Under the pieces are notes generated by a model. It was not told the origin of the DNA. It saw only the letters and a list, made by a program, of their open reading frames with translations, and did not search any database. Source: a virus. Taken from it: DNA of 36,896 nt. The stretch lies in IMG/VR virus record IMGVR_UViG_3300010373_000092, positions 1 to 36,896 of that record; one strand, given 5' to 3'. Both the position numbers and the translations under genes were made by a program. This document shows, one piece after another, positions 704-32,809 of this stretch; position 1 is the stretch's first letter, and every line of letters begins with the position of its first letter.

Positions 704-943
704 ATGCTCAAGCGATTACTGACATTCCTGTTCCCGCCATCGCGCTGGACCGGCTGCGATCCACCGACACGCGCGCAGCGGCTGGCGAACTACGAACTGC
801 GGCTGGGGCAGCATCGCGCCGAACAACGCATGCGCGCCGAGCGCGTCGACCAGCTGTTTGACGAACGCGCCAGCGTGCAGCCCAAGGTCACACCCAAGCT
901 GCCGCGTGACAATGTGGTGGCGATACGACGGAGAAAGGCATGA
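704..943 (+). CDS. Small basic phage protein, 79 aa
   Basis: The N-terminus is hydrophobic (MLKRLLTFLFPP) and is followed by a strongly charged Arg/Glu-rich helix-like region around residues 25-50 (QRMRAERVDQLFDERA) and a basic end (AIRRRKA). It starts one base after the stop of the previous gene, and its own TGA at 941-943 overlaps an ATG at 940. The short hydrophobic start could associate with the membrane but is too short for a confident transmembrane helix. The function is unknown. Confidence 0.6.
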   Translation: MLKRLLTFLFPPSRWTGCDPPTRAQRLANYELRLGQHRAEQRMRAERVDQLFDERASVQPKVTPKLPRDNVVAIRRRKA

Positions 944-978
944 ACGACATCAACGACGGCGGTCCTGCGTTGACATAG
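940..978 (+). pseudogene. N-terminal fragment of a gene split by the HNH insertion
   Basis: An ATG in an ATGA overlap with the preceding stop opens a frame reading MNDINDGGPALT before TAG at 976-978. From general knowledge, many phage and prophage proteins begin with a N-D-G-G-P-A-F/L motif and continue with a short linker into LRDYFAAKAMQG. That second motif is found about 500 bases downstream, in the same frame, in the fragment at 1447-1632. The segment between is the lower-GC HNH gene. The simplest reading is that these 11 codons are the original gene start, interrupted by the endonuclease insertion near 973. Confidence 0.6.
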
Positions 979-998
979 CGGTAATCAAGGAGTACATT
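970..998 (+). promoter_or_regulatory. Candidate sigma70 promoter for the HNH gene
   Basis: TTGACA at 970-975 is a full consensus -35 hexamer. After exactly 17 bases comes TACATT at 993-998, a four-of-six -10 match. Transcription would start near 1005, which is the ATG of the HNH gene, giving a leaderless or nearly leaderless message. The AAGGAG box at 987-992 would then serve only readthrough transcripts. The promoter lies at the left junction of the presumed insertion, as expected if the element brings or creates its own promoter. Confidence 0.45.
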
Positions 999-1486
999 CC
1001 CGGCATGACTACTTGTGCTTGGTGTGATAAAAAATCAGTTATTCGGCAAGGCCGAATCCTACTTTGTTCTCGGCACTATAGATTTCAGCAGATGCGGGGC
1101 AAAGCAAAGTCGTCAGGAAAATCTGTTCCTCCTTATGACGCTCTAGAGGTAATGGCAGACTCACTTGACAGGTTCCGTTGCCCAGCCTGCCAAAGAAAAA
1201 TGAACTGGCTAGCGTCTGATGGACAAACAACGGTTATTTCGTTGCAGCACGACAGAAGTGGCAAGGTTAGATTTCTTTGTCGGTCATGCAACACGAGGCA
1301 TGCAGGGATGCCGGAGGATTCGTTTTATGAGCTACCAAAACTTCATCGCTGGTGTCCACGCTGCAAAACAATAAAGCATAGGTCTGCATTTTATGCAGAT
1401 CGAAGCAGATCATCAGGCATCAAAACATACTGCAAGGAATGTTCAAATGAGTATCACACAGAGTGGATCAGAAAAAGCAAGTGAGG
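973..1486 (+). mobile_element. Presumed homing-endonuclease insertion (boundaries approximate)
   Basis: The stretch between the two halves of the split gene is clearly poorer in GC than its neighbours. The 60-base lines I counted at 1021, 1081, 1201 and 1321 are 42-48% GC, against 73% for the line at 1801 in the exonuclease gene. It contains only the HNH endonuclease gene and its candidate promoter. There is no room for a group I intron core of usual size, so an intronless (free-standing) homing endonuclease fits better than an intron. The edges are inferred from where the host-gene motifs stop and resume. Confidence 0.5.
1005..1484 (+). CDS. HNH-type endonuclease with zinc-ribbon domains
   Basis: This 159-residue protein starts at the ATG at 1005, with AAGGAG 12 bases upstream. 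It has three Cys/His clusters: an N-terminal CAWC...CSRH unit (about 4-26), a central CPAC...LQHDRSG...LCRSCNTRH core (about 63-105) and a C-terminal CPRC...YCKEC ribbon (about 123-150). The central LQHDRSG followed by CRSCN matches the His-centred beta-beta-alpha-metal fold of phage HNH endonucleases, with H in LQHD as the likely catalytic residue. Such enzymes are often free-standing homing endonucleases in phages. Base composition is AT-rich compared with the flanking genes, and the gene sits between two fragments of another phage gene. Assignment as HNH is fairly firm; its mobility is inferred from context. Confidence 0.75.
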   Translation: MTTCAWCDKKSVIRQGRILLCSRHYRFQQMRGKAKSSGKSVPPYDALEVMADSLDRFRCPACQRKMNWLASDGQTTVISLQHDRSGKVRFLCRSCNTRHAGMPEDSFYELPKLHRWCPRCKTIKHRSAFYADRSRSSGIKTYCKECSNEYHTEWIRKSK

Positions 1487-1632
1487 CGCTTACGCTGCGC
1501 GACTACTTCGCGGCGAAGGCGATGCAGGGGTATGTATCGTGCAATGAAGAAATCACATGGTCATTTTCGGAAATAGCTAACGATGCCTACAAGCAAGCCG
1601 ATGCCATGCTCGCGGCAAGGGGTAAGGCATGA
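1447..1632 (+). pseudogene. C-terminal part of the gene split by the HNH insertion, possibly still translated
   Basis: An ATG at 1447, with AAGGA eight bases upstream, opens a 61-residue frame. Its first 13 codons overlap the end of the HNH gene and are probably not ancestral. From about residue 15 it reads LTLRDYFAAKAMQG, then an AYKQADAMLAARGKA end, which is the recognisable body of a common small phage/prophage protein. Its stop overlaps the exonuclease ATG (ATGA), just as the N-terminal fragment at 940 overlaps the previous stop, so the two pieces together fill one normal operon slot. The good ribosome site suggests the C-terminal portion may be expressed as a shortened protein. Confidence 0.6.
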
Positions 1633-2411
1633 GCTTCGACGGCGAATCCGGTCACTGGTATACCCGCGACGGCGATCCTGCGTACATGACGAACGGGCGC
1701 GGCACGACACTGCGCGATGCGCGCAAGCTGCTGCTGGTCCCGTCAGTCACAACCGTGATGAATGTCGTCGCCAAGCCGGCGCTGACGAATTGGCTGGTGG
1801 ACCAGGGCATCATGGCCGCGCTCACGATGCCGCGCATCGACGGCGAGGCCGAGGCGGCCTACATCGCGCGCATCAAGCTCGACAGCCGTGCGCAGGCCAA
1901 GGCGGCGGCCGAAGAAGGGTCGCGTATCCACGATGCGATTGAATGCTACTTCGACAACCGGCAGTATCCGGCCAAGTATCACGAACACGTACAAGCGGCC
2001 CGACGGGAAATCGAACGCCTCTACCCCGGCGTCACCGACTGGATCGCGGAGAAATCCTTCGCACATCCGCTCGGCTTCGGCGGCAAGGTAGACCTGCATT
2101 CGCCATCGACCGGGATCGTGCATGACTGGAAGACCAAGGATGGCGACTTCAGCGACGGCAAGAAACTGGCGTATGACCAGAACGTGCAACTGGCGGCGTA
2201 TCAGGTGGGGTTAGGTCTAGTCGGCGGCAAAGATGGAGCCGACGACTTGTCTGGCCACAAGCAATGCGGCAACAGCTTCGTCTCGCGCACGCATCCGGGC
2301 GCCATCAGCAGCGTCGTGTGGACGCCGGAGCAGATTGCGAAAGGCTGGCGTATCTTTGAACTGGCCCTTGCGCTGTGCAAGGAAACGTCCGGCTATGACG
2401 GAGCATTCTGA
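1629..2411 (+). CDS. PD-(D/E)XK exonuclease (RecB/Cas4-like)
   Basis: This is a 260-residue protein with the ordered nuclease motifs of the PD-(D/E)XK superfamily. H101 lies in EEGSRIHDAIE. The GGKVDLHS segment carries D155, VHDWKTK carries D166 and K168, and a QLAAY motif at about 187-191 resembles the QxxxY motif of RecB/Cas4/lambda-exonuclease relatives. Phage members digest DNA ends, often to make single-stranded tails for recombination. Together with the SSB-like protein upstream and the helicase at the other end of the window it suggests a recombination or replication module. No recombinase (Bet/Erf/RecT) is visible nearby. The start is the ATG in an ATGA overlap with the previous frame. 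Confidence 0.85.
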   Translation: MSFDGESGHWYTRDGDPAYMTNGRGTTLRDARKLLLVPSVTTVMNVVAKPALTNWLVDQGIMAALTMPRIDGEAEAAYIARIKLDSRAQAKAAAEEGSRIHDAIECYFDNRQYPAKYHEHVQAARREIERLYPGVTDWIAEKSFAHPLGFGGKVDLHSPSTGIVHDWKTKDGDFSDGKKLAYDQNVQLAAYQVGLGLVGGKDGADDLSGHKQCGNSFVSRTHPGAISSVVWTPEQIAKGWRIFELALALCKETSGYDGAF

Positions 2412-2578: not shown

Positions 2579-3005
2579 CCCGGTTGCTGGTGAAACATGG
2601 GTACTAAATAGCGCCCCTGATCCATGGGGCGGCAAGCCGGAGGTCAAGGCGATTATCCTTGATGTAAAGCAGGGATGGGTTCGCTATTCGATCGGTGTTC
2701 CATTCACCGATGAACGCATGGAGGTAAAATTATTCACTGCTGTTTACCGCCCTCCTTTTGCAGACCAGACGCACATGATCCGCCGCAGCATCATCCCGCG
2801 CATTTTGATTCCTGCCGTGCTGCTGGCGGCGATCCTGGTAGGCCTGTTTGGGCGCCTGTTCGCAGCGACCCCGACGGCGATCCTCGTCTACAACGTGACC
2901 GCGCATCAGCCGTGCCGCCTGACGTATGCCGTGCGCGGCGATGGCAATGCGCTGCTGTGCGATGCGATCTATGCCAACACCTTCGACAAGGAGCCAGGAC
3001 AGTGA
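2571..3005 (+). CDS. Putative membrane protein with a soluble N-terminal domain
   Basis: This is a 144-residue protein. Residues 1-65 (from MRSPVAGETWVL) look like a small beta-rich soluble domain. A strongly hydrophobic segment at about 77-95 (ILIPAVLLAAILVGLFG) is a likely transmembrane helix, with basic residues before it (RRSIIPR). The tail of about 45 residues holds two cysteines (QPCRLTY and LLCDAI). An internal ATG at residue 69, just before the helix, could give a shorter product or mark an old gene fusion. GAGGTGACGC lies immediately before the ATG. The function is unknown. Confidence 0.6.
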   Translation: MRSPVAGETWVLNSAPDPWGGKPEVKAIILDVKQGWVRYSIGVPFTDERMEVKLFTAVYRPPFADQTHMIRRSIIPRILIPAVLLAAILVGLFGRLFAATPTAILVYNVTAHQPCRLTYAVRGDGNALLCDAIYANTFDKEPGQ

Positions 3006-3313
3006 CGCATGCAGACCAAACGGTGGATGTGAGTCGGGCGACAATTGAAAAAGTAATTCATATCGCGGGCTGCGAACGATGGGGCGCTGGTTTTATTGGA
3101 CAGGCGTACTTCACGGTTGCCGAGGTATTACTCGCCCTGCTCGACGCGAAAGAGAAGGCGGAACAGGACAACGCGCGGCTGCGGCAGGCGATTGAGCGGA
3201 AGGATATAGCTTTGCGCCTGCATTCACCATGCAACGGTAGGGTTACAAAAGATTGCAGAATTTGTGAGGCCATCGCCTACACCGGAAACGACGACACAGG
3301 AGAGATGACATGA
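3002..3313 (+). CDS. Small phage protein with a coiled-coil segment, GTG start
   Basis: The likely start is GTG at 3002, in a GTGA overlap with the previous stop and with AAGGAG at 2988-2993, eight bases upstream. The resulting 103-residue protein has a helical, charged stretch at about residues 40-68 (DAKEKAEQDNARLRQAIERK) typical of a coiled coil. A cysteine-containing end follows (CNGRVTKDCRICEAI), whose CxxxxxxxxCxxC spacing might bind metal. The frame is open further upstream, but that part overlaps the previous gene. The family is not recognised. Confidence 0.6.
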   Translation: MTHADQTVDVSRATIEKVIHIAGCERWGAGFIGQAYFTVAEVLLALLDAKEKAEQDNARLRQAIERKDIALRLHSPCNGRVTKDCRICEAIAYTGNDDTGEMT

Positions 3314-4377
3314 CCCCCGCCCCCAACCTGTTGGCCGATGCGCCGACACCAACGCAGCCGAGCGCCGAGAGTTTGTTGCGCGAGAAGTTTGAATATTTTT
3401 GCCGTAATCACTGCTCACCCGGCGCGAGAAGTAGCGAGTGGTACTGGTTCATCTACAAGTGTGCCGCGGCAGATGTTCGCGAACTCGACGCCGCCACGCA
3501 TGCCAGCGCACAGCAGGCAGAACCTGTTGCTTGCGACAACGACGAGAACCGCGCTGCTGTTGACGAAGCGTATGCGAAGTTTCACGCACAGCAGGCAGGA
3601 ACGCGCGTGACGGATGCGGATGTGGAGCGTGGATTGCATGATTGGTATCGCGGCGATGTATGGCGCACTGAATGTACCTACGAAGAGTCTGACCGTGTTG
3701 ACATGCGCCGCTGCCTCGAATCCTTCGCCGCCACCCTCGCGCAGCCGAATCCCACCCACACCAGCGTTCCCGCGCAGGGGGATGATGAGACGATGCGGAA
3801 GGATGGCTGCCACGGCCTCGATACGCCGGATCGCGTGCGGTTCTACGAGCATGACTTCTATCCGCTGTCGAACTTCTCGGCGTTCAACCTTGAATTCGCC
3901 AGCAGGGTTTTCCCTACGTCAGAGCACGCTTATCACTGGATGAAGTTTTCCGCATGGGGCGAGCCGTCACCAATTCTGCCAAAGGAAGCGGACAGTGTTG
4001 CTTACGCGATCAAGGACGCTGAATCTGCCCATCAAGCATTTAAGATTGCGGAGGCTCACAAAGCCAGCCGGCGCCCTGATTGGGATGACGTGAAACTCGA
4101 CGTTATGCGTCGCATTCTCCGTGCCAAGGTCAAACAGCACGAATACGTGCGCCGCAAGCTACTGGCAACCGGTGAGCGTGAATTGGTCGAAGATTCGTGG
4201 CGCGACGACTTTTGGGGCTGGGGACCGAACCGCGACGGAAAGAACATGCTCGGCAAACTGTGGATGGAAATTCGCGCAGAACTACGCGCCGCATCCAACC
4301 CCATCGCCAGCAGCGCAGAGGGGAAGGGCGCGAAAACCCCGCAGGGGAATGACCGAGGCAGTGGGGGTGGGACGTGA
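3310..4377 (+). CDS. NADAR (YbiA/DUF1768-like) domain protein with phage N-terminal extension
   Basis: This is a 355-residue protein. Residues about 176-328 match the NADAR/YbiA family: FYEHDFYPLSNFSAF, then FPTSEHAYHWMKF with E206, then RRPDWDDVKLDVM, and finally DDFWGWGPNRDGKNMLGKL. Family members are N-glycosidases or ADP-ribose-related hydrolases. YbiA cleaves riboflavin-pathway intermediates, and other NADAR proteins have been reported to remove ADP-ribose from guanine in DNA. Residues 1-155 are unlike the usual YbiA and contain two stretches typical of small phage proteins (a helical region near 20-60 and VTDADVERGLHDWY at about 101-114). The C-terminal 25 residues are low complexity. 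The start is an ATGA overlap. In a phage, reversal of a host ADP-ribosylation defence is an attractive inference, but it is not shown by the sequence. Confidence 0.85.
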   Translation: MTPAPNLLADAPTPTQPSAESLLREKFEYFCRNHCSPGARSSEWYWFIYKCAAADVRELDAATHASAQQAEPVACDNDENRAAVDEAYAKFHAQQAGTRVTDADVERGLHDWYRGDVWRTECTYEESDRVDMRRCLESFAATLAQPNPTHTSVPAQGDDETMRKDGCHGLDTPDRVRFYEHDFYPLSNFSAFNLEFASRVFPTSEHAYHWMKFSAWGEPSPILPKEADSVAYAIKDAESAHQAFKIAEAHKASRRPDWDDVKLDVMRRILRAKVKQHEYVRRKLLATGERELVEDSWRDDFWGWGPNRDGKNMLGKLWMEIRAELRAASNPIASSAEGKGAKTPQGNDRGSGGGT

Positions 4378-31847: not shown

Positions 31848-32156
31848 ATGTCACGCATCACGATCAAAAACTTGCAGGCTTTGGCCGATCAGTTCAATCG
31901 AGAAACCGGCTCCCCGATGTCGTACTGGGCCGATGGCAAGCCGTCCGGTACAACGCGCAGCGCAATCAGTGTGGGTCACTACACGATCGACGCGGCGTAT
32001 GGTGGATACGCGTTGTCGTGTATCAGCAACGCGCAGGGTGGCGAGTGCATCATCCTGACCCGCGGCACCGCATCGGATCTGTACGAGCGCATGCACGCGT
32101 GGCTGGCGGGCTATCGCGCAGCGCGTGAGCAGTATTCGCAGCAGGTGGCGAAATGA
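31848..32156 (+). CDS. First protein of accessory module 2, 102 aa
   Basis: It reads MSRITIKNLQALADQFNRETG at the start and has a Tyr/Gly-rich beta middle (YTIDAAYGGYALSCISN). The end is a helix (ERMHAWLAGYRAAREQYSQQ). I recall broadly similar small proteins in phage early regions but cannot name a family. It is preceded by the GAGGGTA box eight bases upstream and the CGGTTAGG hairpin element, and coupled by ATGA to the pentapeptide gene. Confidence 0.6.
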   Translation: MSRITIKNLQALADQFNRETGSPMSYWADGKPSGTTRSAISVGHYTIDAAYGGYALSCISNAQGGECIILTRGTASDLYERMHAWLAGYRAAREQYSQQVAK

Positions 32157-32809
32157 TCGCCGTGCTTATGCAGATCAAGCGTTGGGACAATGGCGCAGTC
32201 CTGTTTGAAGGCCAGTTTGAGTCGATGCGCGATTGCGTGTTGGCCGCGCTGAAATCATCCGTTTCGCTGCGCTACGCCAACCTGAGCTACGCCGACCTGA
32301 GCTACGCCGACCTGCGCTCCACCAACCTGAGCTACGCCGACCTGCACTACGCCAACCTGCGCTCCGCCAACCTGAGCTACGCCAACCTGCGCTACGCCAA
32401 CCTGCGCTACGCCAACCTGCGCTCCGCCAACCTGAGCTACGCCGACCTGAGCTACGCCGACCTGAGCTACGCCAAGAACTCTGAAATGGCTGTTGCGATG
32501 ACTCGCATCCTGCCGGAAGGTGCGCTAATCGGCTGGAAGAAATGCCGCAATGGGGTAATTGTCAAGCTTCGCATACCAGAAGCGGCACCGCGCAGTCACG
32601 CGTTCGGGCGCAAGTGCCGCGCGGCGTTTGTGGAGGTGTTGGAAGTCATAGGCGCAGAGTTTGGCGTCACCAACAATCACGGGCCGAAAACTGAATACCG
32701 CGTAGGCGAAACCGTCAAGGCTGACAGATGGGACGAGGACTTCACGAGAGAATGCAGCCATGGCATCCACTTTTTCATCACGCGCGCCGAAGCGGAGACG
32801 TACTCATGA
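32153..32809 (+). CDS. Pentapeptide-repeat protein with a C-terminal DUF5758-like domain
   Basis: This is a 218-residue protein. After about 38 residues come 14 consecutive A(N/D)LxY/S-type pentapeptides (about 39-108), which should fold as a right-handed quadrilateral beta helix. The C-terminal domain has EGALIGWKKCRNGVIVKLRI, then GRKCRAAFVEVLEVIG and a CSHGIHFFITRAEAE end, the arrangement of the domain often fused to such repeats in phages. Some pentapeptide-repeat proteins mimic DNA and bind gyrase, but nothing here shows that activity. The repeats are nearly uniform at DNA level, so their number may vary between relatives. Confidence 0.8.
   Translation: MIAVLMQIKRWDNGAVLFEGQFESMRDCVLAALKSSVSLRYANLSYADLSYADLRSTNLSYADLHYANLRSANLSYANLRYANLRYANLRSANLSYADLSYADLSYAKNSEMAVAMTRILPEGALIGWKKCRNGVIVKLRIPEAAPRSHAFGRKCRAAFVEVLEVIGAEFGVTNNHGPKTEYRVGETVKADRWDEDFTRECSHGIHFFITRAEAETYS
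32267..32476 (+). repeat. Fourteen 15-base tandem repeats coding pentapeptides
   Basis: Units such as CTGAGCTACGCCGAC and CTGCGCTACGCCAAC follow each other without gaps. Variation is mainly at the AGC/CGC and GAC/AAC codons. Adjacent identical units indicate recent slippage or unequal recombination. Confidence 0.85.

Follow-up and report, generated by a model that had tools for sequence, protein, structure and literature searches.

A putative PacI-like HNH endonuclease family recurrently found within one small phage gene, whose folded domain is apparently spared

The locus described here raises a simple question: is an HNH endonuclease gene lying inside a small phage gene a chance visitor, or does it belong to a family devoted to that gene? 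The stretch of DNA that was analyzed, hereafter the window, is a viral record 36,896 bases long; the phage has genes that include those for a head-tail connector, a capsid, and a D5-type primase. An earlier note made from the sequence of the window had proposed that an HNH insertion divides one conserved small gene, and the start fragment, the HNH gene, and the end fragment all lie where it placed them, between positions 940 and 1632 (Table 1). The division likewise stands, with the HNH located between GGPA and LRDYF both in the window and in its relatives, as does the lower GC content of the HNH gene (45% vs 62% for the window). A host remnant is indeed present on each side, but together the two amount to less than the whole gene, the linker being gone. 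Similarly, the ATGA coupling it described is found at both outer ends (940-943, and 1629-1632, where the stop of the C-terminal half overlaps the downstream gene), although it marks only several junctions and does not run throughout the operon. That both fragments share one frame proved meaningless, as the frame of the N-terminal remnant relative to the HNH is 0, 1, or 2 among relatives. The earlier note overlooked the recurrence of the split, its specificity to the HNH family, and the survival of the whole folded domain. In the window, the N-terminal remnant is a peptide of 12 codons, whereas the leader of the C-terminal half (MSITQSGSEKAS) is new and overprints, in the +1 frame, the last 38 nt of the HNH gene; native host sequence is certain from position 1495 (CTGCGCGACTAC). 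Elsewhere in the window, positions 3310-4377 of the same operon encode a NADAR-domain protein (PF08719, 1.9e-27), possibly tied to ADP-ribosylation counter-defence, and positions 32153-32809 encode a pentapeptide-repeat protein with a DUF5758 domain at its C-terminus.

Table 1. Features of the interrupted gene and its surroundings in the window.
Feature	Position	Strand	Remarks
Upstream neighbor gene, 79 aa	704-943	+	stop overlaps the host-gene start in ATGA 940-943
Host-gene 5' remnant, MNDINDGGPALT and stop	940-978	+	from ATG 940; fits the conserved GGPAFP leader as far as GGPA
Candidate sigma-70-like promoter	970-998	+	TTGACA-17-TACATT; left junction
HNH (beta-beta-alpha-metal) endonuclease gene, 159 aa	1005-1484	+	ATG 1005, stop TGA 1482-1484; zinc-type CxxC pairs and a C-terminal ribbon
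HNH residue H82	1248-1250	+	conserved
HNH residue N96	1290-1292	+	conserved
HNH residue H99	1299-1301	+	conserved
Shine-Dalgarno AAGGA	1434-1438	+	within the HNH ORF, 8 nt 5' of ATG 1447
Host-gene C-terminal half, 61 aa	1447-1632	+	ATG 1447 to stop 1632; contains LTLRDYFAAKAMQG
Right junction zone, GAG GCG CTT ACG	1483-1494	+	cf. EGMT of intact alleles
Folded domain kept, LRDYFAAKAMQG...AYKQADAMLAARGKA	1495-1632	+	
Downstream neighbor, exonuclease-like gene (PHROG 298)	1629-2411	+	synteny anchor for L082/L083 (gene whole) and L084 (gene absent)

The earlier note had also proposed looking for uninterrupted relatives and for related phages without the HNH gene at this site, and both exist. A search with the C-terminal part returned 584 relatives, and nearly all of the 80 that were kept are single ORFs; over all loci, 185 of 221 motif-bearing ORFs are uninterrupted, a count into which certain contigs enter more than once. 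The intact plan consists of a GGPAFP leader, which is missing in a few short relatives (L049, L059; loci are cited by L numbers), a variable linker (median 15 aa, range 8-38, in 178 intact alleles), and then GMTLRDYFAAKAMQG followed by AYxxADAMLxAR. It is evident that the host gene encodes a small phage protein of the phrog_2201 type, which is matched by the C-terminal half of the window (7.5e-16) and by 60 of 60 intact alleles; a search of the PubMed Central literature for the LRDYFAAKAMQG motif gave no match. Two viral contigs (L082 and L083) carry the gene whole together with the same downstream nuclease gene as the window and a near-identical gene further upstream, while a third contig with this synteny (L084) has no host gene at all. 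In the predicted structure of an intact protein, the leader and linker (residues 1-35) are of low confidence and the helical domain is confident from residue 36. According to this model, the break is just before the folded helical domain, with only the low-confidence leader and linker lost and the domain left whole. The LRDYFAAKAMQG domain is also fused C-terminally to other N-terminal parts (L043 at 5007, L048 at 5007, and L205), which suggests that it is used as a mobile C-terminal module.

The nuclease itself is modeled with a pLDDT of 90.5 (E77-82 E88-92 H93-100), yielding a beta-beta-alpha arrangement that includes H82, N96, and H99. These three residues as well as C59, C62, C92, and C95 are invariant among 18 sequences, and the H ending the first strand, the N and H within the helix, and the zinc CxxC pairs are the hallmarks of the HNH/beta-beta-alpha-metal fold. 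PacI is a rare-cutting HNH restriction enzyme. Its structure (PDB 3ldy) is the best solved fold match, covering HNH residues 1-111 (Foldseek prob 1.00; 17% identity) with a Z of 7.1, a range in which unrelated folds may also score; T4 Endo VII and other HNH folds give lower Z only. Unlike PacI, with which it has no sequence match, the window HNH carries an extra C-terminal zinc-ribbon domain resembling the Hpy99I ribbon. A PDB sequence profile search with the HNH gave no true relative and no Pfam model reached its cut-off (PF02945, 16.7 bits vs a cut-off of 23.6). One gene of MW202545 annotated as "PacI" matches the C-terminal ribbon and not the nuclease core, and it was not counted as evidence. 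DHHRN (Endo VII motif) homing endonucleases of the F-CphI type are characterized by a conserved D-H-H-R-N (DHDH, R, N) (PMC6083498). Common to both groups are the CxxC pairs around an H, the distal N, and matches to PHROG endonuclease (endonuclease VII), which in the window HNH involve the C-terminal ribbon only. However, the defining motif is absent from the window HNH family: QH(Y/D/N)R replaces DHDH, the middle R is unconserved, and the H and N alone are kept. With an incomplete DHHRN/EndoVII motif and no Pfam model at cut-off, HNH activity is not assured and is referred to here as putative.

The distribution of this family is highly biased. Exact-peptide searches with the window HNH alone gave no match in viral or genome contigs, and neither did a search for the pattern NDINDGGPA. 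Relatives were reached using a degenerate short motif from the HNH alone (eight contigs) and then by alignments from those, which added further copies, including one from a Castellaniella MAG; in isolated phages and plasmids, no HNH relatives were found. Altogether, the HNH-only searches yielded 22 distinct core copies, 21 of which are bordered by a host remnant at one end or both (at both in 16). Since 21 of 22 close relatives that were found by HNH alone sit within one gene family, the HNH is not a chance visitor. In L110, the sole core copy without a certain host remnant, the HNH closely resembles those of L108 and L109. In all three of these loci, the restart codon leads into another downstream gene (MLNPREQFEQEHFGISPAKVG...) rather than LRDYF, which suggests that the cassette became attached to a different gene. 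HNHs of more distant relationship (L241-L244) are located outside the host gene, with L242 and L243/L244 near host-family members, and host-family paralogues are also found near HNH copies, either one beside or two in tandem (L099 2719-2970, L243 3922-4409). Searches made without the HNH encountered a single occupied allele (L114 among roughly 185), and occupation is thus rare, at about 1%.

Comparisons of split and intact alleles place the junctions within conserved coding sequence. On the right side, both kinds of allele match from CTGCG(C/T)GACTAC (LRDY) onward and not before. For example, L114 and the intact L020 are identical at 127 of 130 bases to the right of this boundary with no similarity to its left, the same boundary applies to L107/L004 and L112/L149, and the HNH stop codon lies at, or a few bases from, it. 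In L098, L104, and L115, the right boundary is located at the second conserved motif DAML (ADAMLRAR) instead of LRDYF. On the left side, GGPA followed directly by LT (GCGTTGACA) is common to several copies, L109 matches the intact L050 through GCGT, and the members of an empty/occupied pair, L222 (whole) and L103 (split), are nearly identical upstream through GGPAFP. As is characteristic of homing genes, a fixed site is occupied in 21 of 22 copies and empty in relatives (L082/L083, L222, L010/L020).

Several observations further indicate that the element moves, because near-identical HNHs are joined to unrelated C-halves, similarities of the two are uncorrelated, and one split C-half equals an unbroken allele. 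L099 and L100 share 97% identity across 771 bp, a stretch that stops within LRDWFAGLAMQ and is followed by unrelated C-halves, and L239/L240 exhibit the same pattern in different contexts. Among 12 split copies, HNH similarity does not correlate with C-half similarity (Mantel r = 0.02, p = 0.47), and the C-half protein of L114 is identical to that of an uninterrupted allele. Such movement, independent of the flanking allele, is likewise typical of homing genes. On a poorly resolved C-half tree, the 16 split alleles require at least 14 changes between intact and split states. The several base differences between L114 and L010 are confined to the first 25 bases of the C-half, and this fits what a short co-conversion tract might leave behind. 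For the window C-half, the nearest intact allele is just 67% identical; presumably, either its insertion is not recent or the parent allele is unsampled.

The ribosome site that the earlier note saw within the HNH gene is present, but it was not newly gained here, since a restart is built into most HNH copies. Wherever a separate LRDYF-type C-half exists (16 of 16), its frame is +1 relative to the HNH. In 14 of 15 copies, the 3' end of the HNH gene contains a ribosome site and a start codon, vs about 3.9 expected (the sum of per-locus rates under random synonymous recoding of those codons), a figure that serves as a guide given that related copies are non-independent. For the window alone, an embedded restart arises in 64% of random synonymous recodings and is consequently unremarkable; it is striking across the family only. 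In most copies, the candidate restart is a GTG or ATG within NR(D/E) codons, while the window HNH, which is without the NR(D/E) tail, has its AAGGA-8-ATG at a more 5' position of the HNH gene. At the left junction, TTGACA occurs in 10 of 22 HNH copies vs 0.5 expected, followed after 16-18 bases by a -10-like hexamer. Copies with an in-frame fusion of HNH and host leader are without TTGACA. Such fusions to the N-terminal remnant occur in L105, L111, L115, L117, and L238, whereas most copies have a stop between the remnant and the HNH and retain a separate C-half ORF. When C-halves are compared to intact alleles, pN is well below pS (pN/pS including the intact branch). A near-palindrome (TATACCATTGGTATA) is also found just 5' of the HNH start (L099, about 2970-3000; L106, about 2960-3000) and could be an operator.

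Before considering a mechanism, several alternatives should be weighed. Next to no credence can be given to the view that the fragments are always separate genes or mere chance matches: a few short relatives do lack the GGPAFP leader, but the 185 uninterrupted alleles and the N- and C-terminal motifs flanking 16 HNH loci have already refuted it. HNH genes are frequently carried in introns and the two fragments in the window are by chance in one frame, as one might expect from a group I intron, an intein, or a translational-bypass cassette restoring one continuous protein. Yet Rfam gave no intron match (sub-threshold chance matches only), the insert is nearly all coding (970-1484) with no space for a group I core, the frame of the N-terminal remnant relative to the HNH varies, the linker is lost, and no intein motif was found. 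On these grounds, we have rejected all three readings as highly improbable.

It also seems quite unlikely that the small protein recruited the HNH to serve it as a functional domain, creating a nuclease-active allele rather than a parasite. The in-frame N-terminal fusions would be consistent with this, as would the in-frame fusions to the last codons of the gene in L104 and in L115 (MDKINDGGPA...HNH...ADSMLRARGEA), the latter being fused at both ends, but the stop and separate C-half ORF of most copies and the free shuffling of C-half alleles argue otherwise. Passive modular exchange, in which the HNH is ordinary cargo held by GGPA and LRDYF homology arms without any cutting, is conceivable, albeit unlikely. 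The same pattern could arise through recombination at the conserved motifs with no endonuclease at work, the breakpoints do lie in conserved coding stretches, and the gene is accessory (absent in L084), as in a mosaic region. It is nevertheless hard to reconcile ordinary cargo with 21 of 22 clade copies in the slot when about 1% of alleles are occupied, and dedication to a single slot is typical of homing nucleases (PMC2988022, PMC10448857).

We consider it probable that the window HNH represents an undescribed, PacI-like, homing-type family devoted to one small phage gene, i.e. a variant of "genes-in-pieces". The position of the insert, its recurrence, the uninterrupted alleles, the shuffling between alleles, the retained ORF, and the restart, all legible in the sequences, would be expected if a member of this family had taken the place of the variable linker in a conserved small phage gene of the phrog_2201 type, its ORF beginning beside the GGPA codons and ending at or within a few bases of the LRDYFAAKAMQG codons. 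The element would then spread between phages by recombination in these two conserved coding stretches, probably after cutting intact alleles. Damage to the host would be limited, as the leader and linker alone are taken, and the helical domain would presumably still be translated, in the +1 frame, from the start codon and ribosome site embedded in the HNH 3' end. Transcription and translation of the HNH may rely upon its own promoter-like sequence and start (the window and nine others) or, in the fused copies, upon the host start codon used in frame. Taken further, the family might constitute a homing cassette that is self-contained and spares its host: it would target coding sequence within one small gene widespread among phages, employ its own promoter or a hijacked host start, and encode in its 3' codons the ribosome site and start for the host folded domain, rendering insertion nearly neutral; this we offer tentatively, as it falls somewhat short of what we would call probable.

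Phage homing genes are known to escape harm by residing between genes or by being carried in self-splicing elements. The present family apparently embodies a different answer to host harm, in which a linker is the target and the element brings a dual-coded restart. About twenty natural alleles are occupied and about 185 are empty, and such a set could serve as a compact test system for the tolerability of selfish nucleases. Under this interpretation, an unannotated HNH family would gain a proposed function, and the patchy architecture of a very common phage gene would have a possible cause.

Among known systems, the closest in kind are the "genes-in-pieces" arrangements of mobE in nrdA of Aeromonas phage Aeh1 and mobA in gene 60 of T4, in which a phage gene is divided by a homing-type HNH gene into two parts that are translated separately, while related phages have the gene whole (PMC2988022). 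However, the Aeh1-type target is an essential enzyme requiring both halves, whereas here a small accessory gene loses its leader and linker and keeps its folded domain. In addition, T4 mobE and mobA are described as promoter-less cassettes (PMC2988022), unlike the promoter-like box in 10 of 22 copies here, and the C-half restart here is dual-coded in the nuclease. ShiLan, an HNH element in a mycobacteriophage methylase gene (PMC11855218), similarly involves overlapping frames and no intron or intein; there, the host is read through in frame with the HNH hidden in another frame, while here a stop is followed by a restart and the overlap comprises the HNH 3' end only. Nuclease genes at phage exchange boundaries (PMC10448857) and Skunavirus HNHs (PMC12724721) resemble this family as homing-type nucleases in recurrent slots marking breakpoints, but these are mostly free-standing between genes, whereas the slot described here is inside one small gene across unrelated phages. 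What sets the family apart is that a single small gene is targeted repeatedly in unrelated phages, that only leader and linker are lost, and that the restart is dual-coded.
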